Source of the DNA: an uncultured Eubacteriales bacterium | Lineage (GTDB): Bacteria; Bacillota; Clostridia; Lachnospirales; Lachnospiraceae | Assembly: GCA_949294665.1 (NCBI GenBank) | Contig: CASFID010000014.1 | Location: forward strand, 1 to 64,000 | DNA: 64,000 nucleotides | Direction: 5' to 3' | Shown here: positions 10,297 through 21,021 of the stretch, one piece after another | Position numbering within the stretch: position 1 is the stretch's first letter | Layout of the letters: every line of letters begins with the position of its first letter | Notes under the pieces: model-generated | Seen by the model: only the letters and a program-made list of their open reading frames with translations | What the model was told of the DNA's origin: nothing | Database searches by the model: none | Translations under genes and position numbers: made by a program

Positions 10297-10375
10297 CTAT
10301 AGGAAAATGAATATGGAACTTAGTTTGTGGATTATACTTTTAAGAAAAGCGAGACATGAATAATAAATATAAGAA

Positions 10376-10406
10376 GGGGCTGCCGCATCAATTCGTGCGG
10401 AGCCCC
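10376..10406 (-). terminator. Terminator of the glycyl radical/sugar operon
   Basis: GGGGCTGCCGCA (10376-10387) pairs with TGCGGAGCCCC (10396-10406) around an 8-nt loop with one bulged base. On the minus strand it is followed by a T-rich stretch (TTCTTATATTTATT). It lies 25 bp after the stop of the PfkB kinase gene and ends the nine-gene operon. Confidence 0.85.
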
Positions 10407-10431
10407 TCTCTAGATTCATATAAATACAATG

Positions 10432-11577
10432 TTATTCAACTTTTTCCCATCCATTTTTTATTTTCTCGCCCATTACCCGAAAAGATTCCAGCCCACTTAA
10501 CGCATCATAAGTTGTTACGCACGAGGCGCCGGCAGCCGCCGCAAAGTGCAGGGCTTCTTTCCAGTCAATTCCCTTCAGGGCTGAATACAAAAATGCCGCT
10601 ATACTGACATCACCGGCTCCCATAGCCGATACAACCCTCTCAGGCTTATAACTTCTTTCAAAATACTCCTGACAAGACCAGGAAAGTAAAGAAGTCGACA
10701 GCCCACCGCCGATATTTTTTATATGGTTTTGTGTATTCGTTCTGAAATATATCCCACGGGCGCCGCATTTGATTAAAACTATCTTTGCTCCCCATTTCAT
10801 AAGTTTGTCTGCCATCGGTCTGATATGTTTTTCTATCGATAAAACATCTGTAATATCTTTGCCTTTGCTTTTTTCAATCAGTTCATAATACATGGACCGA
10901 TCAATAAAATAGACAAGTTCCTCAAAACTCGGTGCAAAAATATCAACATATGGCATTACTGTCTGCAGTATTTGATCCCAGTCAGCTTTTCCACCTTCTG
11001 ACATCTCATCTGCAATCGCCATATCTAATGAAGTAGCGACACCTGATTGCTTCACATTTTTAAAAAGCCGGATAAACTCTTCACCTTCATTCGCATACAT
11101 ATGACGCATGATAGGGGGATATCCAAAATGAAACAGATTTGCTTTTTCAACAATCTCAAAATCCACATCTTCAAAACCGAACGAATTATTGGCTCCCGAA
11201 TTGTGCAGAATAATCCTGTCAATACCTTTTACAGATAAAACAATTGAATATGCCGTCTCCACATTCGCATTCGTTTCCTTCACGAACTCTGCCTTTACTC
11301 CGAGCTTACTGATCTGCTCCTGAATAAGCCAGCCAAACTTATCATCCCCTATTTTAGCCATAAGGTATACGTCAGCGCCAAATTTTTTCATTGCCAATCC
11401 TGTGTTTCCAACAGAACCGCCGATATGAATATCCGCACTGCCTACAGGAATTATTTTTCCCGGTTTAAAAAGTTGAGATATTGTTTCATAGTTTTTATGC
11501 TCCTGGAAAGATGGTGCGATATCTAAACAAATGTGACCTGCTGAAACTACAGCTTTTTTCTCATTGTATGATTTCAT
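10432..11577 (-). CDS. PfkB-family carbohydrate kinase
   Basis: This 381-residue sugar kinase of the ribokinase/PfkB fold has the N-terminal glycine-rich signature GGSVGNTGLA (residues 53-62). The C-terminal ATP/catalytic signature is SAMGAGDVSIAAF, with the catalytic Asp in GAGD. At 381 residues it is longer than the usual 300-330, with an insertion around residues 210-240 (DRSMYYELIEKSKGKD). It is the last gene of the operon, one base after the aldolase gene. The likely role is ATP-dependent phosphorylation of the imported sugar or of an intermediate, making the substrate for the aldolase or the glycyl radical enzyme. Exact specificity is not readable. Confidence 0.88.
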   Translation of the reverse strand: MKSYNEKKAVVSAGHICLDIAPSFQEHKNYETISQLFKPGKIIPVGSADIHIGGSVGNTGLAMKKFGADVYLMAKIGDDKFGWLIQEQISKLGVKAEFVKETNANVETAYSIVLSVKGIDRIILHNSGANNSFGFEDVDFEIVEKANLFHFGYPPIMRHMYANEGEEFIRLFKNVKQSGVATSLDMAIADEMSEGGKADWDQILQTVMPYVDIFAPSFEELVYFIDRSMYYELIEKSKGKDITDVLSIEKHIRPMADKLMKWGAKIVLIKCGARGIYFRTNTQNHIKNIGGGLSTSLLSWSCQEYFERSYKPERVVSAMGAGDVSIAAFLYSALKGIDWKEALHFAAAAGASCVTTYDALSGLESFRVMGEKIKNGWEKVE

Positions 11578-11578
11578 A

Positions 11579-12529
11579 TCATTTTCCCCTGGTTGTGTCT
11601 TCTTTTTGAAGTTCTTTTATCACTTCGGTTACAATGGTCTTAATAATTTCTTTCCTCTCTATTTGCATATATTCTGCTTTTCCGGCAGAGCCAAAAAGAG
11701 TCATCTTTCTGATAACTGATTCTTTCACTGCATTAACCGCTGCCGGTATGAGATCAATAATCCCTTTATTCATACGATCAAAAGCACTAAATTCCGCCTC
11801 TACGGCAGCTATATTAATATCTGTAAAGATATTGATTTTACTGATGCCTTTTTCGATTGCCTTTTTAAAATCATAATCTGACAAGCCGGAACCGCCATGA
11901 AGAACAAGGGGAATATCGATTGTATCTGCAATAGCTTTAATTCTCTCAAAATCAAGTTTTGGAGGCAGTTTATATGTTCCGTGCGCAGTTCCTACAGAAA
12001 TTGCCAGGGCATCCACGCCTGTTTTTTCTACAAAATCCTTAGCCTGTTTCGGATCCGTAAAATACCGGCCTGGATCTGTCTGTACAGAGTTTCCCTCTGC
12101 CGAATTATCATTGTCTCCTACATGTCCAAGTTCTGCTTCAATTGTGGCTCCATACGAATGTGCAATCTCCGTCATCTCTTTTACTTTCTCAACATTAATG
12201 TCGTAAGGATCTGTAGAGCAATCATACATGATAGACGAAAACCCCAGCTTCAGTGCTTTTATACATGTTTCCTTTCTCAATCCATGATCTAAATGTACTA
12301 CTACCGGAACACTTGCTTTTTGGGACATAGGGAGCAAATAATAAGAAACTTCTTCTAATGGGCCATATGGGAACAAAACTTCTGCTGTTCCTACTATAAC
12401 CGGCGAACGCATTTCTTCCGCCGCGGCAAGGATTCCTCTTGCCAATTCAAGATTTACAGCATTAAAAAGGCCCACCGCATACTTTCCCTTACGTGCAGGT
12501 ATAAGAACATCATTTAATGTTGCAAGCAT
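11579..12529 (-). CDS. Class II ketose-phosphate aldolase (Fba/GatY/KbaY family)
   Basis: This 316-residue zinc aldolase has family metal and catalytic positions His82 and Asp81 (HLDHG), the Glu131/Glu133 region (EAELGHVG), His183 (SVGTAHGTY) and His211 (LHGGSG). It would cleave a phosphorylated ketose to a triose phosphate plus a second three-carbon product. Whether the substrate is fructose 1,6-bisphosphate, tagatose bisphosphate or a deoxy-ketose monophosphate cannot be decided from the motifs. The gene sits between the LacI regulator and the PfkB kinase in the inducible operon, which argues for a dedicated catabolic aldolase rather than the glycolytic enzyme. Confidence 0.9.
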   Translation of the reverse strand: MLATLNDVLIPARKGKYAVGLFNAVNLELARGILAAAEEMRSPVIVGTAEVLFPYGPLEEVSYYLLPMSQKASVPVVVHLDHGLRKETCIKALKLGFSSIMYDCSTDPYDINVEKVKEMTEIAHSYGATIEAELGHVGDNDNSAEGNSVQTDPGRYFTDPKQAKDFVEKTGVDALAISVGTAHGTYKLPPKLDFERIKAIADTIDIPLVLHGGSGLSDYDFKKAIEKGISKINIFTDINIAAVEAEFSAFDRMNKGIIDLIPAAVNAVKESVIRKMTLFGSAGKAEYMQIERKEIIKTIVTEVIKELQKEDTTRGK

Positions 12530-12593
12530 TTATCTTACCTCATTTCCATCTGTAAATATAAGCATTATCATTATCCTCTTAAACAAAAACATA

Positions 12594-13571
12594 TTAAGTT
12601 GTCATCCCTTTTACAAGCCGGATATCTTCTAAAGCAATATTGCTGGATATCTTCTCTCCATTGATTTTGCGTATCAGGATCTCTACAACTTTATCGGCTA
12701 TCAGATCAAATGGCTGCTCCACGTATGTAAGTGTCGGATACATTAATTTGGCGATATCTCCTCCATCATATCCGACAAGTTTTACCTCCTCAGGAATTTT
12801 ACGGCCCGAATCAAGCAAATATTTCATTACATTCGCTATAACTAAATCAGAAGAAAATACTCCGTCAATTTCAGGATATTCTTCAAAGACTTTTTTCGCT
12901 TCATTATAGTATTGATCACGTCTGAGTTCATTTCTCTTTAGAGAATAATCTATACATCTGATCCTGTTTTCTTTTAAAATCTCTGCGAAAATGCTATTTC
13001 TGATAAAGGAGGGGGTTTTCACATTCACATCACCCTGCATCTGAATTACACACTTACAACGATTTCGGACAAATTCTTCTGCAGCCAGTCTTCCTCCTTT
13101 TGCATGATCTGAAGAAATAGTGGGAATCGAATCACTCAGGGTAACATCGAGCGCTACCACCGGCATTTCGATCGCCCGGTACTGCTCCGTTTTTAACATA
13201 TGTGTTCCGATGATAATACCATCTACTTTATTCTGGAACAACATGTTTAAATATTCGTTTTCATAAGAGCCTCTGTCTTTGGAATTACATAAAAATAATT
13301 TATAACCCCGCTTACGTAATCTGGTTTCAATCCGCTCTGTCATCTCAGTAAAAAATGGAATCGCAACATCAGGAATAAGCAATCCGATATAAGAAGTTCT
13401 CCTGTTATGGAAACTTCTTGCAAGCTGGTTTGGCTGATAATTTAGCGCCGCCATTGCATTCTGTACTTTTTCTTTTGTCTCAACGGAAATGTAGCCTCTG
13501 TCATTCATAACCCGAGACACCGTTGTAATTGAAACGCCGGCTTCTTTTGCCACTTCTTTAATTGTTACCAT
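12594..13571 (-). CDS. LacI-family transcriptional regulator
   Basis: This 325-residue regulator has an N-terminal LacI helix-turn-helix (residues 2-25, TIKEVAKEAGVSITTVSRVM) and hinge helix, followed by a periplasmic-binding-protein-like effector domain. It is embedded between the glycyl radical activase and aldolase genes, so it is transcribed with its own targets. The likely operators are two copies of a motif with a central AAACGATTG upstream of the substrate-binding protein gene, one covering the -35 box. The effector is presumably the imported compound or its phosphate. Confidence 0.92.
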   Translation of the reverse strand: MVTIKEVAKEAGVSITTVSRVMNDRGYISVETKEKVQNAMAALNYQPNQLARSFHNRRTSYIGLLIPDVAIPFFTEMTERIETRLRKRGYKLFLCNSKDRGSYENEYLNMLFQNKVDGIIIGTHMLKTEQYRAIEMPVVALDVTLSDSIPTISSDHAKGGRLAAEEFVRNRCKCVIQMQGDVNVKTPSFIRNSIFAEILKENRIRCIDYSLKRNELRRDQYYNEAKKVFEEYPEIDGVFSSDLVIANVMKYLLDSGRKIPEEVKLVGYDGGDIAKLMYPTLTYVEQPFDLIADKVVEILIRKINGEKISSNIALEDIRLVKGMTT

Positions 13572-13600
13572 CTTATCCCCTCCATTGATTCAAATATCAG

Positions 13601-14497
13601 TTATGAGATCACGACATTTTTATTTACTGACTGAATCATTTCCTTTATTTTTTGCATTCTGCCGGCATCAGGCTCCTGAAACACTTTTGCCTTCATTTGC
13701 AGGCTTTGCGCCTTATAGAGTCCATAGGAATGATATGTCAGCAGATCAATTCTTTCAATTTTGCCCAACTCTCTATAGTATGCCGTAAAGGCCGATATGT
13801 CCTCATCCGAATCATTCACCTGATGTATTAAAGGCATACGTATCCAGATTTCAGTTTTTCCTGTCCGTGATAACCGTTTCAGATTTTCTAAAATAAGTCT
13901 GTTTGCAACTCCTGTATATTCTTTGTGGATATGATTCCTGACCGCCTTGACATCGAATAAAAATAAATCTGTGTATGGAATTATTTTTTCAAAATTACTC
14001 CATGAGACACAGCCGGCAGTATCAACGGCGGTATGTATTCCTTTTTCTTTTGCCATTTTTAACATTTCAGACACTTCTTCAATCTGGAGCATTGGTTCTC
14101 CGCCCGAAAGAGTAATGCCTCCCCATCCGAATATCAGATCATCGTAACAGGCGTCGTCTAAAGTATCCCGGATATCAACATATCTCCCGGACATCTGAAG
14201 TGCGTCTGCATAGCAGTTCTCGACACAGACTCCACAAACTGCGCATTTTTCAAGATCAAGCTGCCATCTGTTATTCTTTATTGAAATTGCTTTTTCTGGG
14301 CATACATTTAAACAGACTCCACATCCTCTGCATCTTTTTTCCATATATTGGATTTCTCTGTACCGGTGCTGTGTTTCCGGATTGTGGCACCACTGGCACC
14401 TGAGATTACACCCTTTCAGAAAATAAGTGGTACGTATTCCCGGGCCATCATGCATACTGTATCGCTGAATCTGAGAAATAAATAATTTGTTACCCAT
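13601..14497 (-). CDS. Glycyl-radical enzyme activating enzyme (radical SAM)
   Basis: This 298-residue radical SAM activase abstracts a hydrogen from the C-terminal glycine of its partner enzyme. The SAM cluster motif is Cys30-x3-Cys34-x2-Cys37. An inserted ferredoxin domain with two 4Fe-4S motifs (CRGCGVCLNVCPE and CAVCGVCVENC, about residues 55-95) is typical of activases for dehydratase or lyase-type glycyl radical enzymes and absent from the plain PFL activase. The motif TLSGGEP follows (about residue 128). The gene overlaps the partner's stop codon by 8 bp, a strong sign of a dedicated pair. Confidence 0.95.
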   Translation of the reverse strand: MGNKLFISQIQRYSMHDGPGIRTTYFLKGCNLRCQWCHNPETQHRYREIQYMEKRCRGCGVCLNVCPEKAISIKNNRWQLDLEKCAVCGVCVENCYADALQMSGRYVDIRDTLDDACYDDLIFGWGGITLSGGEPMLQIEEVSEMLKMAKEKGIHTAVDTAGCVSWSNFEKIIPYTDLFLFDVKAVRNHIHKEYTGVANRLILENLKRLSRTGKTEIWIRMPLIHQVNDSDEDISAFTAYYRELGKIERIDLLTYHSYGLYKAQSLQMKAKVFQEPDAGRMQKIKEMIQSVNKNVVIS

Positions 14498-16733
14498 TCA
14501 CTATTGTTCTCCCTATAATCTCATCCTGAATTTCTGGAGCAAGCGAAGTGAAATAAGCGCTGAAGCCGCATACTCTGACAATAATATTTTTATATTGTTC
14601 CGGATCTTTTTTTGCTTTTTCGAGTTTACTTACGTCAAGCATATTAATATCCAAAGCGCTTCCGCCTGCTCTGAGGAAGGCTTTTACTGTCATATTAAGA
14701 TAATCCTTATTTATACTGCTTTTGCTGACAGGCATCTCAAGATAAGTAACTCCGCTTCCAGGATAAAGTGACAGATCGATTTTTGAGATTGCGGACAATA
14801 TATTTGCTATATTTGTAATTCCACTCTGTTCTGTCGGATTAATTCCTCTCGACAAGGCTACCCCTGCCTCTCTTCCGTCCGGGGTAGCTCCAACTTTATC
14901 TTTCATCCAGTCAAACAAATAGAACACGAATAATGAAGCTTCATATTTCCCGTCTCGTGAGTTGTCATAATGGGAGGTCACAGCTGCGGCATCCGCAAAA
15001 AATCTTTGAGAAAACTCCTCAGATTCCTCCGAACCGTCTCCAAATTGAGGACATCTATTTTTAATATAGTCCTGTATTCTCTGGCTGTCCACATAATTTT
15101 TGCTTAGAATATCCGAAAATTCTTTAAGACTCAGCATTTTCCGGTCATACACCATCGTTTTTATAGCCAGAAGCGAGTTGATTGCCGTTCCAATCCCTAC
15201 CATTGGAATACTTGTACTATTATATACAGCTCCCCCTTCTGTCATATCTTTGCCCTTTTCTATACAGTCGTCCATAGTTGCGGAAATCATTGCGCATGGA
15301 TTATATAACGCTGCTTTTTTTTCGTACTGATTAACTTTTTGCACCAACCCCTTATATAGAGTTTTTAACCTTTCCACAAAATTTTCATACAGATCCTCAA
15401 AACTTTCCCAATCTAGCCATCTGCTGTCGGTATTACAGGATTTGGCCATAAAAGCATTTAATTTATTATCCAGAAATGTATTGACTAGTTGAGGCAGACT
15501 AATATATAAAAAGGCTCTGCTATTAAATTCTTTATTATCCAGAACCGGTTCCTGACATCCCCCTGCGGAATACAGGCGTGAATCCTCCAAAAGTTTTCCC
15601 ATTTTCACATTTGCTTTGATAATAATATCATCATTCAAAAACGAAAAAATATTCTGCCCTTTTGCGACCATTGCACTGCACATATCAAAATATTCATCGG
15701 GATGATTTACAGTCATTCTTGCCTGAACTTTTGGATTAACAAATCCAAATTCATCATAACATTCCAGGATCATTCTGCTGATATCATTCCAGATCAGCTG
15801 ACCCTTTTCATTACAGCCTCCTATTGTAATACTGCAATTTGTGGAAGCGAAATCACAATTTTCCAGATCCCATCTTGCATCTGTATGGGAAAGCCAGTGC
15901 GCCATATAATTTTTGGCAGATTCATAGGTGATTTTTCCCGACGAGATATCCTTTTCATAATAAGGCAAGAGTATTCTGTCAAGATGACCTAAAACAGCAA
16001 CGGCTACACCCTCCAGATCAATTGCCATTTCTTTCATAAAAAGAATCGCACAAAGAGCCTCATAAAAACCAGAGGCCGGCTTATACGGAACATTTTTTGC
16101 CGCGTGAGTAATTTCTCTGAGGTTTTCAGCAAAATCAGGATTGCTTTCATGCTTGAGCATTTCCTCTGCTTTTGAGGCAAAATTCTCTGCGATCTGTTTC
16201 AAAGCCCCACACATTGTCAAAACGCTCTGATAAAATGATATTTTTCTGTCATCAGATTCTTTATCCAGTTTGCTTCTGACTTCCTCTTCAATCCCTGAAA
16301 TTCCTACGTGGAGAACTTTTTCATATCCCATCGTATGATGCGCCATATCTGTAAATACTTCACCCCATACAAGATCTCTGTCCTGATACGGCTTCATCCA
16401 CTTCTGGAACTCTTCCATTATAAAATTATTTTTTCTGGTAAACCAGCCTTCCAGTCCGGGCCCCGGTGGATATCCGTTCTGGCTTGTATTGCGCATTCGC
16501 CCGGATACCAGTTCAAAGAAAAACGGGGATGTACGGAAAACATGTACATCACATAATTCTGCCGCTCCTTTATATACCAGAGCCTTTTTTTTATAGGAAT
16601 ATTCTGAACCTGTTTCTGCAAGCCACTCATCCATGATCTTCTGTTGTTTTGATACATCGTACGGCATCTTTTCGTAATATTCCTCAAATTCCCGAAAAAG
16701 TTTATCCTTATATTTTTTAAACAGACACGCCAT
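14490..16733 (-). CDS. Glycyl radical enzyme, unassigned dehydratase/lyase clade
   Basis: This 747-residue member of the pyruvate formate-lyase superfamily has its radical site in RVCGFSAYF, with Gly723 the expected radical glycine. The thiyl cysteine is Cys393 in GGCQEP, followed by Glu395. This single Cys plus Cys-x-Glu arrangement marks eliminating enzymes (dehydratases, C-O, C-S or C-N lyases) rather than PFL, which has two adjacent cysteines. I cannot assign it to glycerol, propanediol, choline, hydroxyproline or sulfonate enzymes. Its neighbours (sugar ABC importer, PfkB kinase, ketose aldolase, MDR dehydrogenase) point to a sugar or anhydro-sugar substrate. The enzyme should be oxygen-sensitive and cytoplasmic. 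Confidence 0.93.
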   Translation of the reverse strand: MACLFKKYKDKLFREFEEYYEKMPYDVSKQQKIMDEWLAETGSEYSYKKKALVYKGAAELCDVHVFRTSPFFFELVSGRMRNTSQNGYPPGPGLEGWFTRKNNFIMEEFQKWMKPYQDRDLVWGEVFTDMAHHTMGYEKVLHVGISGIEEEVRSKLDKESDDRKISFYQSVLTMCGALKQIAENFASKAEEMLKHESNPDFAENLREITHAAKNVPYKPASGFYEALCAILFMKEMAIDLEGVAVAVLGHLDRILLPYYEKDISSGKITYESAKNYMAHWLSHTDARWDLENCDFASTNCSITIGGCNEKGQLIWNDISRMILECYDEFGFVNPKVQARMTVNHPDEYFDMCSAMVAKGQNIFSFLNDDIIIKANVKMGKLLEDSRLYSAGGCQEPVLDNKEFNSRAFLYISLPQLVNTFLDNKLNAFMAKSCNTDSRWLDWESFEDLYENFVERLKTLYKGLVQKVNQYEKKAALYNPCAMISATMDDCIEKGKDMTEGGAVYNSTSIPMVGIGTAINSLLAIKTMVYDRKMLSLKEFSDILSKNYVDSQRIQDYIKNRCPQFGDGSEESEEFSQRFFADAAAVTSHYDNSRDGKYEASLFVFYLFDWMKDKVGATPDGREAGVALSRGINPTEQSGITNIANILSAISKIDLSLYPGSGVTYLEMPVSKSSINKDYLNMTVKAFLRAGGSALDINMLDVSKLEKAKKDPEQYKNIIVRVCGFSAYFTSLAPEIQDEIIGRTIVNG

Positions 16734-16748
16734 AATAATTTTTCCTTC

Positions 16749-17768
16749 CTATGAGATAATAAGATTTACTTTTAAAGCCCTTTTTTCAACAATAGCCCGG
16801 AAACCTTCCTCATAATCTTCCAAAGGCAAACGATGAGTAACCAGAATATCTGTGTTGATCTTCCCATCCAAGATTCCTTCTTCAACAAATTGGTGGGTTT
16901 TCGCTTCTTCCGCTGGAATTGGCCATTGAACCAGTTTTAATGTAATATTGCGGATATTATTGACGGGAAGGAGGATATTGTCGCCAGTCCTGAGTCCATA
17001 TACAGCAATTGTCCCATTCTCTTTTACAACCGATAATCCCTGCAGTATTGTTTCGTCAGTTCCTATCGTGTCTATGTAGAAATCATACCTGTTACTTCTC
17101 AATTTCTCTTTATCCGTATCTTTTTTATTATGATATCGGTTCCTTGCGCCGATTTTTTCGGCAACTTTCAGATTTTCTTCATGGTTTCCCACGATATCGA
17201 CATCTTTTATCCCCATATAGTTACAGATACTGAGCATACTCAATCCTACAGGTCCGTCTCCTACAATAAGAAGCTCCGCCCCGGGGCAGGCCCCTGTCCT
17301 CCAGATTGCGCTGCAGGTTTCTTTCAGTGTGATCATGAGTGATGCCTGTTCCGGGGTGATTTCCGTAGCAACCACCTGCTGTGTCAAAGAACTACAGGCT
17401 GTGGGAATATCTACGCCGTCTTCGAGCATAGCGCCGCTGTCCTTTACGATTCCATACTCCGAAAAACTTCCCCATCCGCTGTGATATTTCTCAGAATCCC
17501 CCAGCGATACACGCATAACACGATCGCCGATTTTAAAATTGCGGACATTCTTACCTTTCTTAATGACGGTTCCCACGCCCTCATGGCCTAATACCAGTGG
17601 GTAATTTTTTGCCTCCCGCAATTGCTGATGTATAATTTCCATGTCTGTCCCATTGCATATCATACAGCACTCCATTTTCACCAGCGCTTCATAATCATTA
17701 ATCTCAGGCACAGGGATATCATCAACCAGCCTTACTTTTCCCGTATTTTCAACAATTAACCCTTTCAT
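16749..17768 (-). CDS. Zinc-type MDR alcohol/polyol dehydrogenase
   Basis: This 339-residue medium-chain dehydrogenase has catalytic-zinc ligands Cys38 (CNGTD) and His62-Glu63 (GHEGVG). The nucleotide fold shows GDGPVG near residue 170. The usual four-cysteine structural-zinc lobe is missing: the segment after GDRV (about residues 83-105) has no cysteines. It probably oxidises a polyol or reduces a small carbonyl such as hydroxyacetone for redox balance. Within the operon it follows the two permease genes by 7 bp and precedes the glycyl radical enzyme by 15 bp. Confidence 0.88.
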   Translation of the reverse strand: MKGLIVENTGKVRLVDDIPVPEINDYEALVKMECCMICNGTDMEIIHQQLREAKNYPLVLGHEGVGTVIKKGKNVRNFKIGDRVMRVSLGDSEKYHSGWGSFSEYGIVKDSGAMLEDGVDIPTACSSLTQQVVATEITPEQASLMITLKETCSAIWRTGACPGAELLIVGDGPVGLSMLSICNYMGIKDVDIVGNHEENLKVAEKIGARNRYHNKKDTDKEKLRSNRYDFYIDTIGTDETILQGLSVVKENGTIAVYGLRTGDNILLPVNNIRNITLKLVQWPIPAEEAKTHQFVEEGILDGKINTDILVTHRLPLEDYEEGFRAIVEKRALKVNLIIS

Positions 17769-17775
17769 TGTACAA

Positions 17776-18636
17776 TCACCCCTTTACGCCCGATAATGTT
17801 ACGGACTGGATAAAATATTTCTGTAAAAACAGATATAAAATTAAAATTGGAAGCACACTGATTATGGTTGCTGCCATCACCTCATTCCATGGAGGTATAA
17901 ATTCGACCGACGGTCCTGTCAATGAAGCCATAGCCAGGGTTACCGGATACATTTCTTCCTTATTAAGCGCAACTAACGGCCAGAGAAGATTATTCCAGCT
18001 CTGCAAAAATACATATACCCCGAGCGTCAGCATTCCAGGAACTGCATTTGGCAGGATAATCCTGGAAAATATTTGAAAATCCCCCGCTCCGTCCACATAA
18101 GCCGCTTCATTCAGCTCTTTTGGTATCCCGATAAAAAACTGACGTATCAGAAATGTTCCAAAAGGAATGGACCACGCCGTCAAAGGCAGTATCAATCCCA
18201 GGTAACGGTTCATCAGATTCAGATTCTTTATTAAGATAAACGACGGGATCAGTCTGACGACCATCGGCACCATCATTGTTGAAAGATAAATAAAGAAAAC
18301 CAAAGTTGCATGCCTGAACTTCATTCTTGTCAAAGCATATGCCGCCATGCTGCAAACCAAAACTGTTAATAGCGCCGTTGGCACAGAGACGATAAAGGAA
18401 TTTAAAAAACTTCTGGGAAAGTCGATCAAAGTCCATGCTTTTGCAAAGTTACTCCACAATATTTCGCCGGGGATCAGTTTCGGCGGATAGATAAAAAGTT
18501 CCGTATCGTTTTTCAAGGCTGTCGAAAGTACCCAGCAGAATGGATACAAGACAACAATAGCAATTAAAACCGCTGCGAAAATGCAGAGACATGATTCAAT
18601 TAATTTTTTCTTTCTATAGCTTTTATTTTTCATCAT
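17776..18636 (-). CDS. Carbohydrate ABC transporter permease, MalG type (CUT1)
   Basis: This 286-residue inner-membrane permease has six predicted membrane segments. The EAA loop for ATPase contact is EAAYVDGAGDFQIF. The N-terminus has a short cytoplasmic lysine-rich lead before the first membrane helix. It forms the import channel with the MalF-type partner encoded 11 bp upstream. No ATPase gene is present in the operon, so the importer must borrow a general MsmK/UgpC-like ATPase encoded elsewhere, as many Firmicutes CUT1 systems do. Confidence 0.93.
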   Translation of the reverse strand: MMKNKSYRKKKLIESCLCIFAAVLIAIVVLYPFCWVLSTALKNDTELFIYPPKLIPGEILWSNFAKAWTLIDFPRSFLNSFIVSVPTALLTVLVCSMAAYALTRMKFRHATLVFFIYLSTMMVPMVVRLIPSFILIKNLNLMNRYLGLILPLTAWSIPFGTFLIRQFFIGIPKELNEAAYVDGAGDFQIFSRIILPNAVPGMLTLGVYVFLQSWNNLLWPLVALNKEEMYPVTLAMASLTGPSVEFIPPWNEVMAATIISVLPILILYLFLQKYFIQSVTLSGVKG

Positions 18637-18647
18637 ATTATCATCCT

Positions 18648-19535
18648 CTACTCAGATTTTGTCACACGGTTCTGTAATATAGTAAATACCAGGATCACCA
18701 CAAAGAGAAATACTGACATCGCGCTTGCATATCCCATATCCATAGAAGAAAATGCAGTTTGATACATGTAATACCCTGTAACGTACGTGGAAGTTCCCGG
18801 ACCTCCCGACGTAATCATATAAAACAGATCGAATTCCTGAAATGATCCTATGATACTCATTAAAGCAATAAATACTATAACTGTTTTCAGTTCAGGCAGC
18901 GTTATATATCTGAATTTCTGCCATGGACCGGCACCTTCCAGACTTGCCGCTTCATAATACTGTTCTGAAATATCAAGCATGCCCGCAACAAGCATGACCA
19001 TGTAATAACCGGCCCATCGCCATACTGTCACAATAACGATTGATATCATCGCTATCTTTCCACTTGTAAACCATTTTACAGGTTCTATCCCCAGAATGTC
19101 TAACAGACCGTTTACCGCGCCGTTATTAGTTCCAAGCAAATAATTCCAGGCTATGCCAGTTGCCACCAGAGATAACATGGTCGGCATAAAAAAAATCCCT
19201 CTGAACAATTTTGCAAGTTTAGTATGCGTAACCAACACCGCCATGCCCAGTGACGCTACTATGATAAGCGGAACATTTAAAACAATATAATAGAGGGTAT
19301 TCCAGACGCTTTCCCACCACAGAGAGTCTCCAAACAACTTTTTATAATTCGCTAAGCCTGTAAAATCTGCACCTTTAAGAGGACTCCACTCATAGAACGA
19401 AAGTACCATAGAATAAATCATTGGCCATAAAACAAACACAAGCAAGAGCGCGAGACTGGGCAAAAGGAACAGAAACACTGTGAAACTTCTGCGAAGTGTA
19501 TTTCTTTTTCTTTCACTGTTAATTGTTCTACTCAT
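18648..19535 (-). CDS. Carbohydrate ABC transporter permease, MalF/UgpA type (CUT1)
   Basis: This 295-residue permease has six predicted membrane helices and an EAA loop reading EAASLEGAGPWQKF, the partner of the downstream MalG-type protein. The lead before the first helix is basic (SERKRNTLRRS). It is encoded about 85 bp after the substrate-binding protein gene. Confidence 0.93.
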   Translation of the reverse strand: MSRTINSERKRNTLRRSFTVFLFLLPSLALLLVFVLWPMIYSMVLSFYEWSPLKGADFTGLANYKKLFGDSLWWESVWNTLYYIVLNVPLIIVASLGMAVLVTHTKLAKLFRGIFFMPTMLSLVATGIAWNYLLGTNNGAVNGLLDILGIEPVKWFTSGKIAMISIVIVTVWRWAGYYMVMLVAGMLDISEQYYEAASLEGAGPWQKFRYITLPELKTVIVFIALMSIIGSFQEFDLFYMITSGGPGTSTYVTGYYMYQTAFSSMDMGYASAMSVFLFVVILVFTILQNRVTKSE

Positions 19536-19621
19536 ATTTTCTCCTGTTTATACTGCCCGGCATTTGATATAATTCCGGGCAGCTATATGTACAAAGGATA
19601 AAATTTATCCTTTCGTAACCG

Positions 19622-20932
19622 TTATTTATTCTCTGCAGCGTCCGCTTCCAGCATTTCATTTATCTCCTCTGCCAGATCTTCCATCACTACAGCTGCATCT
19701 TCTTTGTCATACCATATTCTGTCAAGTTGTCTTGACGCGGCATTTAATTGATCATTTTCACTCAACACATTAGGAATCCATTTACAGTAATCTAATGCGT
19801 CTATAAAGATCCCCGCATTCTTAGACGGATCGAACTGAGAAATAGATGATTCCTTTAACGATTTTCTTACCGCAATCTGAGGATCGCTGGTGTTCTCCAA
19901 TAATATCTTAAGCCCTTCTTCTCCAGTAATATATTTTATAAAATCAAGAGCGGCTTCCTTATTCTGAGACGTTGACGCGATTCCCAACGAATTTACATAC
20001 AGCACTTCCCCTTTATCTCCGTTATTTCCATATGGAGAATGCATGATCTCCCAGTCAAGCACATCATTATCTTCCAGTTTCAATGCTTCCCATAAAGCGA
20101 CACGCCCCATCGCGATCGATCCAGAATTCAACATTCCTACGATCGGAAAAGAACCTTCATCCAGCTTTTCAATTGCAGGGATTAACCCCTCATCCACGAG
20201 GCTCTGAATATATGCTACTGCTTCAACTGTTTTCGGATCATCAAGATTACATTTGGTTTCATCAGAATTCGTATATTCTACTCCATTCTGCCACATATAT
20301 GGCAGCAAAGTCTTTAATCCATAGTCGTTTATCAGCGTTGCATAATCTACGCCCAGTTCTTCTTTATTTGCCATTATCTGTTGGCAGACATCTTTAAATT
20401 CATCCCAGGTAAAACCTTCTTCCGGAACTGTAATATTCAGTTTATCAAACATATTCTTGTTATATACCCATGCATAGTTTCCGCCATCTACAGGAACGCC
20501 GTACGCCTTACCGTTATAAACCGCATAATTCAGAGTTATCTCCCAAAAGTCGTCAAAATTATAGTCTGAATCCTTTTTCAATTCATCATAATCAATCTCT
20601 TCCAATATCCCGGCATCAGCAAACATCTGAGTATTTCCTACTTTACAGGAAATAAGATCAGGCAGTGCATCTCCTGCCGCTTCAGTATTGATTTTTGTTT
20701 CATAATCCGATACCTGCTCATAATTGATCGTCACATTCGGATTAACTTCCTTATAAGCGTCTATCACCGGCTGATACTTGGATACAGGATCCCAGCTCTG
20801 CCACGTAAGAGTAACTGCCCCGGAATCATCCGTACTTTCGCTTTTATTTTCTGAGTTACCGGATGAACAGCCTGCAACTAAGCCTGTAAGCATTGCCGAT
20901 GACAATAAAATTGCTAAAATTCTTCTTTTCAT
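19622..20932 (-). CDS. Extracellular sugar-binding lipoprotein of a CUT1 ABC importer
   Basis: This 436-residue lipoprotein begins with a basic signal peptide and the lipobox LVAGC, with lipidation at Cys22. A Ser/Asn/Glu-rich linker tethers the mature protein to the outer face of the membrane. The remainder matches family-1 solute-binding proteins (SBP_bac_1) in length and character. It captures the oligosaccharide, polyol or related substrate for the two permeases. It is the first gene of the nine-gene operon. Its ATG lies 11 nt after AAGGAG, and upstream are a -35/-10 pair and two operator-like sites. Confidence 0.92.
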   Translation of the reverse strand: MKRRILAILLSSAMLTGLVAGCSSGNSENKSESTDDSGAVTLTWQSWDPVSKYQPVIDAYKEVNPNVTINYEQVSDYETKINTEAAGDALPDLISCKVGNTQMFADAGILEEIDYDELKKDSDYNFDDFWEITLNYAVYNGKAYGVPVDGGNYAWVYNKNMFDKLNITVPEEGFTWDEFKDVCQQIMANKEELGVDYATLINDYGLKTLLPYMWQNGVEYTNSDETKCNLDDPKTVEAVAYIQSLVDEGLIPAIEKLDEGSFPIVGMLNSGSIAMGRVALWEALKLEDNDVLDWEIMHSPYGNNGDKGEVLYVNSLGIASTSQNKEAALDFIKYITGEEGLKILLENTSDPQIAVRKSLKESSISQFDPSKNAGIFIDALDYCKWIPNVLSENDQLNAASRQLDRIWYDKEDAAVVMEDLAEEINEMLEADAAENK

Positions 20933-20981: not shown

Positions 20982-21021
20982 ATACTATCACCATCGTATA
21001 TGTATGTCAATCGTTTTCATA
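20982..21021 (-). promoter_or_regulatory. Promoter and operator 1 of the sugar operon
   Basis: On the minus strand, -35 TTGACA (21005-21010) and -10 TAGTAT (20982-20987) are spaced by 17 bp. The -35 box lies inside ATGAAAACGATTGACAT (21003-21021 region), a LacI-type sequence with outer TATG/CATA symmetry. A repressor bound here would cover the -35 box. Confidence 0.7.

Follow-up and report, generated by a model that had tools for sequence, protein, structure and literature searches.

A glycyl radical enzyme outside the named subfamilies in a nine-gene carbohydrate operon of a Lachnospiraceae bacterium

A nine-gene operon and its regulatory signals

We analyzed a stretch of 64,000 nucleotides (hereafter, the window) from an uncultured Eubacteriales bacterium. 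It carries one run of nine open reading frames on the minus strand, and both the reading frames and the domain profiles agree with the gene families and positions of the initial annotation. The run opens with an importer: a CUT1-type sugar-binding lipoprotein (SBP; 19622..20932, PF01547/PF13416, with the lipobox-like motif LVAGCSS) and two permeases with the domain PF00528 (BPD_transp_1), the first UgpA/GlcT/MalF-like (18648..19535) and the second GlcU/UgpE-like (17776..18636), both below the curated cut-offs. These are followed by a sorbitol-dehydrogenase-like MDR dehydrogenase (16749..17768; PF08240/PF00107, ADH_N/ADH_zinc_N), a glycyl radical enzyme (GRE; 14490..16733; PF02901, PFL-like, 337 bits, and PF01228, Gly_radical, 55 bits), a radical SAM glycyl-radical activase with two ferredoxin-type clusters (13601..14497; Radical_SAM and Fer4, TIGR02494), a LacI-family regulator (12594..13571; PF00356 and a sugar-binding domain), a class II (DHAP-type), YdjI-like aldolase (11579..12529; PF01116, F_bP_aldolase), and a PfkB-family kinase (10432..11577; PF00294), probably a ketose kinase given its neighbors in other genomes. 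Each of the nine starts with ATG preceded by a purine-rich stretch, and the successive gaps from SBP to PfkB are 86, 11, 7, 15, -8, 29, 64, and 1 bases. The operon includes no gene for an importer ATPase, and none of the ten proteins searched with domain profiles is a component of a PTS. The window has no Rfam match at gathering scores and no tRNA detected by ARAGORN.

A single promoter and a single terminator had been proposed for this operon. There is indeed a promoter-like site ahead of the SBP gene (TTGACA-17-TAGTAT, 20982..21010, minus strand), but it is weak on its own because the scanned stretch contains 44 such sites for 32.5 expected. Similarly, a GC-rich hairpin with a T-rich tail lies 3' of PfkB (about 10362..10408, minus strand) and the 117-base stretch holding it folds with a z of -4.09, but this terminator-like hairpin is absent from the list produced by a strict terminator scan. 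The -35 box is overlapped by an operator-like site of 17 bases, ATGAAAACGATTGACAT (21004..21020, minus strand), and the identical 17 bases precede the SBP gene of the genome G013. The sequence is found without mismatch once in the source genome and once in G013, both times ahead of the SBP gene, so that no second exact site pointing to further members of a regulon was found in these two genomes. Scans allowing mismatches gave no usable pattern: the source genome has 13 matches, twelve of them with 2-3 mismatches (15 in the reversed control), and G013 has 23, one of them exact (7 in the reversed control). Two other genomes have exact sites, two in G015 and one in G104 (together with one nearby at one mismatch), and these are exclusively ahead of the SBP gene; in G104 this region also serves divergent GH32-aldolase genes. 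Sites with one mismatch occur elsewhere in these genomes, seven in G015 and two in G104. Homologues of the LacI regulator with 45-80% identity are present at the loci L004, L026, and L028. We infer that LacI would govern the single promoter.

The glycyl radical enzyme forms a clade apart from the characterized types compared

The assignment to the GRE superfamily is based on the PFL-like and Gly_radical domains, both over their cut-offs, on the residues Cys393-Gln394-Glu395 and Gly723, which a motif check confirmed as initially annotated, and on the adjoining activase, also over its cut-off. The enzyme had been described as matching no assigned type, and this holds. It matches eight named NCBIfam GRE equivalogs and is far below every cut-off: HypD (282 bits), HpsG (257), HpfG (231), CutC (216), indoleacetate decarboxylase (193), hydroxyphenylacetate decarboxylase (151), and PFL (48) have cut-offs of 994-1150, and the formate C-acetyltransferase model PRK09983 gives 219 bits for a cut-off of 1109. 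Among solved structures, phmmer scores are 228 bits for glycerol dehydratase, 226 for HypD, 219 for propanediol dehydratase, and 158 for isethionate lyases. Hence, the B12-independent glycerol and propanediol dehydratases score about as HypD does, and neither they nor isethionate and other sulfonate lyases (IslA) are close kin, as far as these scores tell.

In the phylogenetic tree, the enzyme falls within a clade of 12 rows (support 100/100), apart from YbiW, PflD, CutC, HypD, PflB, and one pdu-type GRE, in a tree built without IslA, HpsG, glycerol and propanediol dehydratases, decarboxylases, and succinate synthases. Five near-identical HypD-like rows (L018, L020-L023) were also left out, PflB was flagged as a long branch, and L046 was flagged for odd composition. 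YbiW and PflD are 23-25% identical to the window GRE and lie across a 100/100 branch of length 1.71. A search of the open-access literature found no paper assigning this branch, which is weak evidence.

His132, Cys393, and Glu395 are invariant in the six rows of the window GRE's group, where Gly723 is also kept, and the enzyme has the CxE and partner His of GRE eliminases. The CxE residues and the sugar type of the operon are as initially noted. According to PMC7077986, CXE is conserved among GRE eliminases, and the HypD variants H160Q, C434S, E436Q, and G765A are inactive. Since His132, Cys393, Glu395, and Gly723 align with these essential residues, the window GRE is likely a radical eliminase. 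It departs from all 16 outside GREs compared at two positions, Gln394 and a small residue at 244: the residue after the Cys is Gln or His in the window clade and Val, Ile, or Ser in the others. These two positions could be associated with a different chemistry. A structure prediction from the window and L004 sequences only had a mean pLDDT of 38.7, and statements on the pocket are therefore drawn from the alignment only.

A conserved core with variable importers

The closest GRE group is represented by six loci (the window, L004, L026, L027, L028, and L029) found in five genomes. The order MDR-GRE-activase is kept in all six, with identities across all pairs of 35-61% for MDR, 38-68% for GRE, and 39-59% for the activase. 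The activase scores 314 bits with TIGR02494 (cut-off 174) and, in addition to CX3CX2C, has two CX2CX2CX3C motifs, in agreement with the two clusters initially attributed to it. The closest solved relatives of MDR are sorbitol dehydrogenases (69 bits), and its ICNGTD cysteine, GHE, and later Glu (L[KE]E), which we take to bind the catalytic zinc, are kept in the five relatives. The searches for homologues in genomes were limited to the top two or three candidates per genome, and a paralogue may have escaped them.

An ABC importer is encoded near the GRE in L004, L026, L027, and L029. The closest solved relative of the SBP is an arabino-oligosaccharide-binding protein (107 bits). SBP identities are 64-71% among the window, L004, and L026, and 18-26% in every other pair of the six loci, low values that could result from fast divergence instead of exchange. 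Judging from the sequences compared, MDR-GRE-activase is the conserved core of these loci, while the importers diverge. Glycosidases are linked to the GRE locus in half of the cases: L026 has a GH32-like gene inside the cluster, L028 has a divergently oriented GH32 gene beside its operon, and L028 and L029 share a homologous glycosidase-like protein of 904/933 residues, for which neither single-sequence nor profile searches found a solved relative. Using tblastn, no linked glycosidase family was found at the window, L004, or L027. We propose that importers and linked glycosidases vary with the form in which the sugar unit arrives.

The aldolase and the kinase point to a ketose branch

The aldolase is closest to E. 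coli YdjI (205 bits with the structure 6ofu, 40% identity over 286 residues) and keeps the motifs HxDHG, HGxSG, and NIxT, so that kinship and motifs both place it in the YdjI-type class. YdjI is annotated as a ketose-1-phosphate aldolase, and class II DHAP-type aldolases cleave C1-phosphorylated ketoses. The initial proposal of an aldol cleavage to hydroxyacetone is not supported by this class. The best NCBIfam match of PfkB is IolC, whose substrate is a deoxy keto-acid, with 85 bits for a cut-off of 300. The aldolase class, the sole basis here, would place the phosphorylation by PfkB at O1.

The two genes occur together in a GRE operon in the window alone and are often apart elsewhere. In genomes or loci without the GRE, they have a xylose-isomerase-like protein and an AraC-type regulator as neighbors in 5 of 17 contexts, and in one context PfkB is near a D-lyxose isomerase. 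These neighbors indicate that the input of the branch is probably a free ketose. Together, these data suggest a path from ketose to ketose 1-phosphate to DHAP.

Orthologues were counted in 245 genomes, presumed from agreeing identifiers to belong to the 299 searched. The aldolase is present in 3 of 4 GRE-positive and in 6 of 241 other genomes, and PfkB in 3 of 4 and 21 of 241 (score limit 338 bits, in a set that includes G088 at 338.2 bits). Excluding the window's own genome weakens the co-occurrence, with p values of 0.003 for the aldolase, 0.024 for PfkB, and 0.06 for both together, and with thresholds set after the scores were seen, kinship uncorrected, and GRE-positive genomes among the larger ones.

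A proposed pathway and its alternatives

The GRE is unlike the characterized types compared and its nearest relatives keep the same MDR and activase, so that an imported sugar probably loses an oxygen group through its action. The reading that we favor, tentatively and at slightly less than an even chance, is that of an inducible anaerobic operon where the radical eliminase, together with the sorbitol-dehydrogenase-like MDR, turns a sugar or polyol unit without phosphate into a ketose that here enters the PfkB/aldolase branch. The importer would bring in the unphosphorylated carbohydrate. The activase would make a radical on Gly723 that is passed to Cys393, and the thiyl radical would abstract a hydrogen beside a hydroxyl group of the substrate. 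Glu395 and His132 would handle the proton as the neighboring C-O substituent leaves, and this radical elimination would yield a deoxygenated carbonyl compound. MDR would work on this molecule too, by forming the ketone before the GRE step or by reducing the carbonyl after it. In this genome, PfkB would phosphorylate the free ketose or deoxyketose at O1 and the aldolase would split the 1-phosphate into DHAP and an aldehyde. The eliminase chemistry and the order of these steps are what we infer, while gene content, gene order, clade, catalytic residues, and the conserved core are read directly from the sequences.

The aldolase and PfkB may instead be a separate ketose module merely joined to the operon, the GRE product entering other metabolism, which we regard as rather unlikely but deserving of weight. 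Neither gene is in the fetched neighborhoods of L004, L026, L027, and L029, the genes have their own loci in genomes lacking the GRE, and in the GRE-positive genome G250 they lie beside a xylose-isomerase-like gene and not beside the GRE. Given that they are found independently of the GRE and are seldom linked to it elsewhere, they may serve another sugar. However, their co-occurrence with the GRE is above background, the pair precedes the terminator-like hairpin in the window, and L028 encodes an aldolase 72% identical to that of the window, which together with the GH32 gene is divergent from the GRE operon, with two operator-like sites in the intergenic region common to both directions.

A specific form of our preferred reading, with a confidence that overlaps with it and is on its own fairly low, has the GRE as a polyol or sugar dehydratase: water would be lost from an alditol or ketose, MDR would balance the redox, and a deoxyketose 1-phosphate would give DHAP and a 3-hydroxypropanal-like aldehyde. 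The resemblance of MDR to sorbitol dehydrogenase among solved structures, of the kinase to IolC within NCBIfam, and the DHAP-type aldolase are consistent with this, and GRE dehydratases offer a precedent (PMC7077986). However, the SBP is most like an oligosaccharide binder, the glycosidases at three of the six loci would be needless for a free polyol, and the position aligned with the substrate-binding residue of glycerol dehydratase is Ala or Gly.

It is doubtful that the GRE opens the ring of an unphosphorylated anhydro-sugar or anhydro-alditol, imported free or as a glycoside, with the aldolase and PfkB handling another part. ABC import, the linked glycosidases, and the eliminase residues would suit this, and GRE ring opening has a precedent: a review of the work of Ma et al. 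(JACS 2024) describes the anhydroglycolysis of YbiW/PflD, with PTS import to a 6-phosphate and then 1-deoxyfructose 6-phosphate (PMC12441222), chemistry that the initial annotation had given correctly. Yet, in the tree, the window GRE is not close kin of the ring-opening enzymes.

Two further ideas have a low probability. The clade might not be eliminases but carry out a different kind of radical chemistry (C-C cleavage or a rearrangement, for example), in line with the Gln or His after the Cys and with sister sub-groups of the window GRE's group that lack the Glu, but the group itself keeps all four of the catalytic residues. Equally speculatively, MDR and GRE might be a redox-assisted radical lyase for glycosides, where MDR oxidizes a hydroxyl, the GRE thiyl radical expels the glycosidic or ring oxygen, and the ketose is freed for the ketose-1-phosphate branch. 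If true, sugar-oxygen bonds would be broken without hydrolysis or phosphorylation, and importers and trimming glycosidases would be swapped around a constant MDR-GRE-activase core; the lack of a linked glycosidase family at the window, L004, and L027 weakens the glycoside idea.

Finally, the PfkB-first route of the initial annotation (1,5-anhydrohexitol import, C6 phosphorylation, opening to 1-deoxyfructose 6-phosphate, cleavage to glyceraldehyde 3-phosphate and hydroxyacetone, and reduction by MDR) is very improbable: its chemistry is real (PMC12441222) and the gene kinds are broadly those of the known route (GRE, activase, aldolase, dehydrogenase), but the GRE is of a different clade than YbiW/PflD, no PTS component is among the ten proteins searched, the aldolase is of class II instead of FSA, and 1-deoxyfructose 6-phosphate lacks the C1 oxygen, unlike the C1-phosphorylated ketoses of class II aldolases, which leaves the route unsupported. 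Moreover, PfkB is absent from the fetched neighborhoods of four of the five other GRE loci (L004, L026, L027, and L029) and the fifth has a 26% homologue outside the operon, which makes phosphorylation before the GRE step unlikely to be obligatory; three of these genomes nevertheless carry a closer PfkB elsewhere.

Comparison with known systems

The E. coli YbiW and PflD systems resemble the window in having a GRE with CxE, an activase, and a nearby aldolase, plus a dehydrogenase for PflD: ybiW-ybiY is located by fsaA, and pflD-pflC by fsaB, gldA, ptsA, and frwBCD. They differ in using a PTS and an FSA-type aldolase, where the window has ABC import, a class II aldolase, MDR, and PfkB. In E. 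coli, 1-deoxyfructose 6-phosphate goes to the FSA enzymes. HypD tops the solved relatives in a profile search (417 bits) and has in common with the window GRE the His, Cys, Glu, and Gly that serve radical and acid-base chemistry, but the window GRE is far from the HypD cut-off of 1100 bits, has Ala244 in place of Asp278, and lies in an operon without proline genes. The B12-independent glycerol dehydratase (1r8w/1r9d), the best solved relative by single sequence, has a different operon, and its His281 and Ser282 correspond, across the six loci, to Ala/Gly and Val/Ile/Phe, the former being a position where it binds its substrate. The GRE-dehydrogenase pairs of the HpfG-HpfD type (PMC11489063) would work alike if the window MDR reduces a carbonyl made by the GRE, and differ in that the HpfG cut-off of 1000 bits is far from reached and that the HpfG substrate is a sulfonate. 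The E. coli YdjHIJL cluster, annotated as an octuluronate kinase, a 1-phosphate aldolase, and two zinc dehydrogenases, also has PfkB, class II aldolase, and MDR close together, but it lacks a GRE and the window kinase and MDR are only 21% and 22-26% identical to its proteins.

Several assigned GRE branches have each opened an anaerobic pathway for one substrate. The branch described here is deep, keeps one partner dehydrogenase throughout, stands in a carbohydrate context, and scores below the cut-off of every named NCBIfam GRE subfamily. It narrows the testable substrates to a short list and could reveal anaerobic sugar deoxygenation or cleavage ahead of any phosphorylation.

Operon layout and putative control sites

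As the initial annotation stated, nine tightly spaced minus-strand ORFs span positions 20932 to 10432. Their Pfam families are a sugar-binding lipoprotein (SBP), two permeases, a sorbitol-dehydrogenase-like dehydrogenase (MDR), a glycyl radical enzyme (GRE) with PFL-like and glycyl radical domains, a radical SAM activase with ferredoxin clusters, a LacI regulator, a class II aldolase and a PfkB kinase; no importer ATPase gene was found among them in our ORF and Pfam survey of the operon. The catalytic signature was also as described (Cys393-Gln-Glu395 and Gly723). A promoter-like site (21010-20982, minus strand) is overlapped by a 17-base site, of which one unchanged copy occurs in a relative (G013), also before the SBP gene. 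The operon ends in a hairpin with a T-rich tail. A small CmpB-like ORF lies upstream, and two ORFs downstream are, judging by eye from their sequence, of MutS and MutL type.

Placement and distribution of the glycyl radical enzyme

In NCBIfam, the general PFL2-3 model gave the window GRE 304 bits (cut-off 678), and the eight named GRE equivalogs that it matched gave 48-282 bits (cut-offs 994-1150). Among solved structures, the best matches were glycerol dehydratase (228 bits), the trans-4-hydroxy-L-proline dehydratase HypD (226) and propanediol dehydratase (219); the E. coli enzymes PflD and YbiW scored 177 and 161. A profile of eight relatives had the same three types on top (HypD 417, glycerol dehydratase 415, propanediol dehydratase 405), and gave 347 for PflD and 325 for YbiW. 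In a 32-row tree the window GRE belongs to a 12-row clade, parted by a branch of length 1.71 (support 100/100) from YbiW, PflD, CutC, HypD, a pdu-type GRE and PflB, the last being a long row of unsure placement. Glycerol and propanediol dehydratases, IslA, HpsG, decarboxylases and succinate synthases were compared by scores alone. Hence, the window GRE matches no assigned type among those compared here, and clusters with none of the characterised glycerol, propanediol, sulfonate or hydroxyproline enzymes in that comparison.

The clade is rare and has a conserved MDR partner. Copies at 38-68% identity to the window GRE (or the query itself) occur in 5 of 299 family genomes, own included, and the six loci of this closest group come from the window's own genome (G000), G013, G015 (two), G104 and G250. 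A copy from the same clade with 27% identity occurs in G161, another family genome. Copies at 30-36% were found, besides G000, in one genome of the order draw (n=392), four of the class draw (n=391) and none of the phylum draw (n=398). A scan of genome contigs returned one locus (L004), and plasmid GREs, among the best 40 of 58 matched records, reached at most about 28% identity where most of the query was covered. Two Bacteroidota plasmid GREs (L057:5518-7797 and L058:5578-7791) form a separate long branch (2.2, 100/100); a ROK-family gene and a ManNAc-6-phosphate epimerase lie beside one, and a GH20 gene near the other.

All six loci of the closest group keep the order SBP-permease-permease-MDR-GRE-activase. 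In six more distant clade members (L030, L031, L039, L045, L046 and L047), the retrieved stretches, which are short contigs for L039 and L045, yielded no MDR homologue. Between window/L004/L026 and L027/L028/L029, identity is 35-44% for MDR, GRE and activase, whereas SBP identity is 64-71% among the former three and 18-26% in all other pairs. This contrast suggests that the importer was either exchanged or is diverging much faster than the MDR-GRE-activase core. At L004 (14220-16526), a 768-residue ORF divergent from the GRE operon has a LacI-like start and, by eye, a sugar-binding-protein-like continuation.

Glycosidase-type genes lie close to three of these six loci. The L026 cluster contains a GH32-like propeller protein, and at L028 a GH32 enzyme is divergent from the GRE operon and adjoins an aldolase sharing 72% identity with that of the window. 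A glycosidase-like family of 904/933 residues is present in L028 (4263-7064) and L029 (11712-14426), with a mutual identity of 37-38%; its six-hairpin glycosidase match is weak at most, and a search for a solved relative found none. Searches by tblastn detected no member of these families in the window, L004 or L027. We infer that a constant catalytic core is fed by differing imported compounds, some of them glycosides. Cohesin-like and dockerin-like proteins are encoded downstream of a G015 GRE operon (L026:1994-6074).

Catalytic residues and likely reaction class

In the alignment, His132, Cys393, Glu395 and Gly723 of the window GRE correspond to His160, Cys434, Glu436 and Gly765 of HypD. 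An excerpt of PMC7077986 reports each HypD variant at these positions as inactive, and describes CXE as conserved among GRE eliminases. Judged from these residues, elimination is therefore the likely reaction class. At the column of HypD Asp278, YbiW has His, PflD has Ser, and the window's group has Ala or Gly. All six loci keep Arg406 and Glu598, which are absent at the same columns from 16 of 16 aligned GREs outside the clade; Arg406 is also found in L045 and L046. These differences imply, at the level of sequence, a pocket unlike those of the enzymes compared. The window GRE is most likely a radical eliminase whose substrate would be a sugar or polyol unit without phosphate, with moderate support for the mechanism class, radical elimination.

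A sub-group of the same deep clade (L031:9285-11492, L039:108-2375, L047:9006-11255) keeps Cys and Gly, with the CxE Glu replaced by Asp or Gly (CWD, CWG), and may perform non-eliminase chemistry. AraC-type genes adjoin its members in L031 and L047.

The aldolase and the PfkB kinase

The window aldolase is nearest to E. coli YdjI (205 bits, 40% identity), which is annotated as a 1-phosphate aldolase and adjoins a kinase and zinc dehydrogenases. Class II aldolases of this family release DHAP; therefore, the substrate should be phosphorylated on C1.

In GRE-positive genomes, orthologues of the aldolase and PfkB mostly lie away from the GRE. Both are present in G015 and G250, PfkB only in G013, and the aldolase only, at high identity, in G104. 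Across 245 family genomes (thresholds of at least 440 bits for the aldolase and 338 for PfkB), the aldolase occurs in 3/4 GRE-positive vs 6/241 other genomes (p 1.4e-4; 2.8e-3 without G000), PfkB in 3/4 vs 21/241 (p 3.1e-3; 2.4e-2) and both in 2/4 vs 4/241 (p 2.9e-3; 0.06), p-values that take no account of relatedness or genome size.

Among 17 contexts with an aldolase gene, a PfkB gene or both (L041-L043 and 14 new ones), five, belonging to four genomes, have in common an AraC-type regulator and a xylose-isomerase-like protein. Scores on TIGR02631, obtained for three of these five isomerase-like proteins, were 195-209 bits, below the cut-off of 447. At L043, a D-lyxose isomerase lies about 2 kb from PfkB, and the remaining contexts have no shared partner of isomerase kind. 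The isomerase-linked contexts make it seem that the aldolase-PfkB pair often receives a free ketose from an isomerase, and the repeated association of YdjI-like aldolase and PfkB with a xylose-isomerase-like protein and an AraC-type regulator (L042, L114, L116, L117, L118) suggests a ketose-1-phosphate route. In the window, MDR and GRE would occupy the isomerase's place as the ketose source.

Comparison with anhydroglycolysis

The initial annotation suggested as a possibility a PTS-free anhydroglycolysis, with PfkB phosphorylation, ring opening of YbiW/PflD type and aldol cleavage. Its view of an unassigned GRE in a sugar operon is retained; the pathway is rejected as the leading reading. The window GRE falls in another clade, and PfkB is absent from the fetched neighbourhood in four of the five relatives' loci. 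A 1-deoxyketose can carry no C1 phosphate, a further point against this route. The E. coli pathway, as outlined in an excerpt of PMC12441222, passes from the PTS through YbiW or PflD to 1-deoxyfructose 6-phosphate. FSA genes lie near both of these E. coli GREs, whereas the window has an aldolase of the DHAP type.
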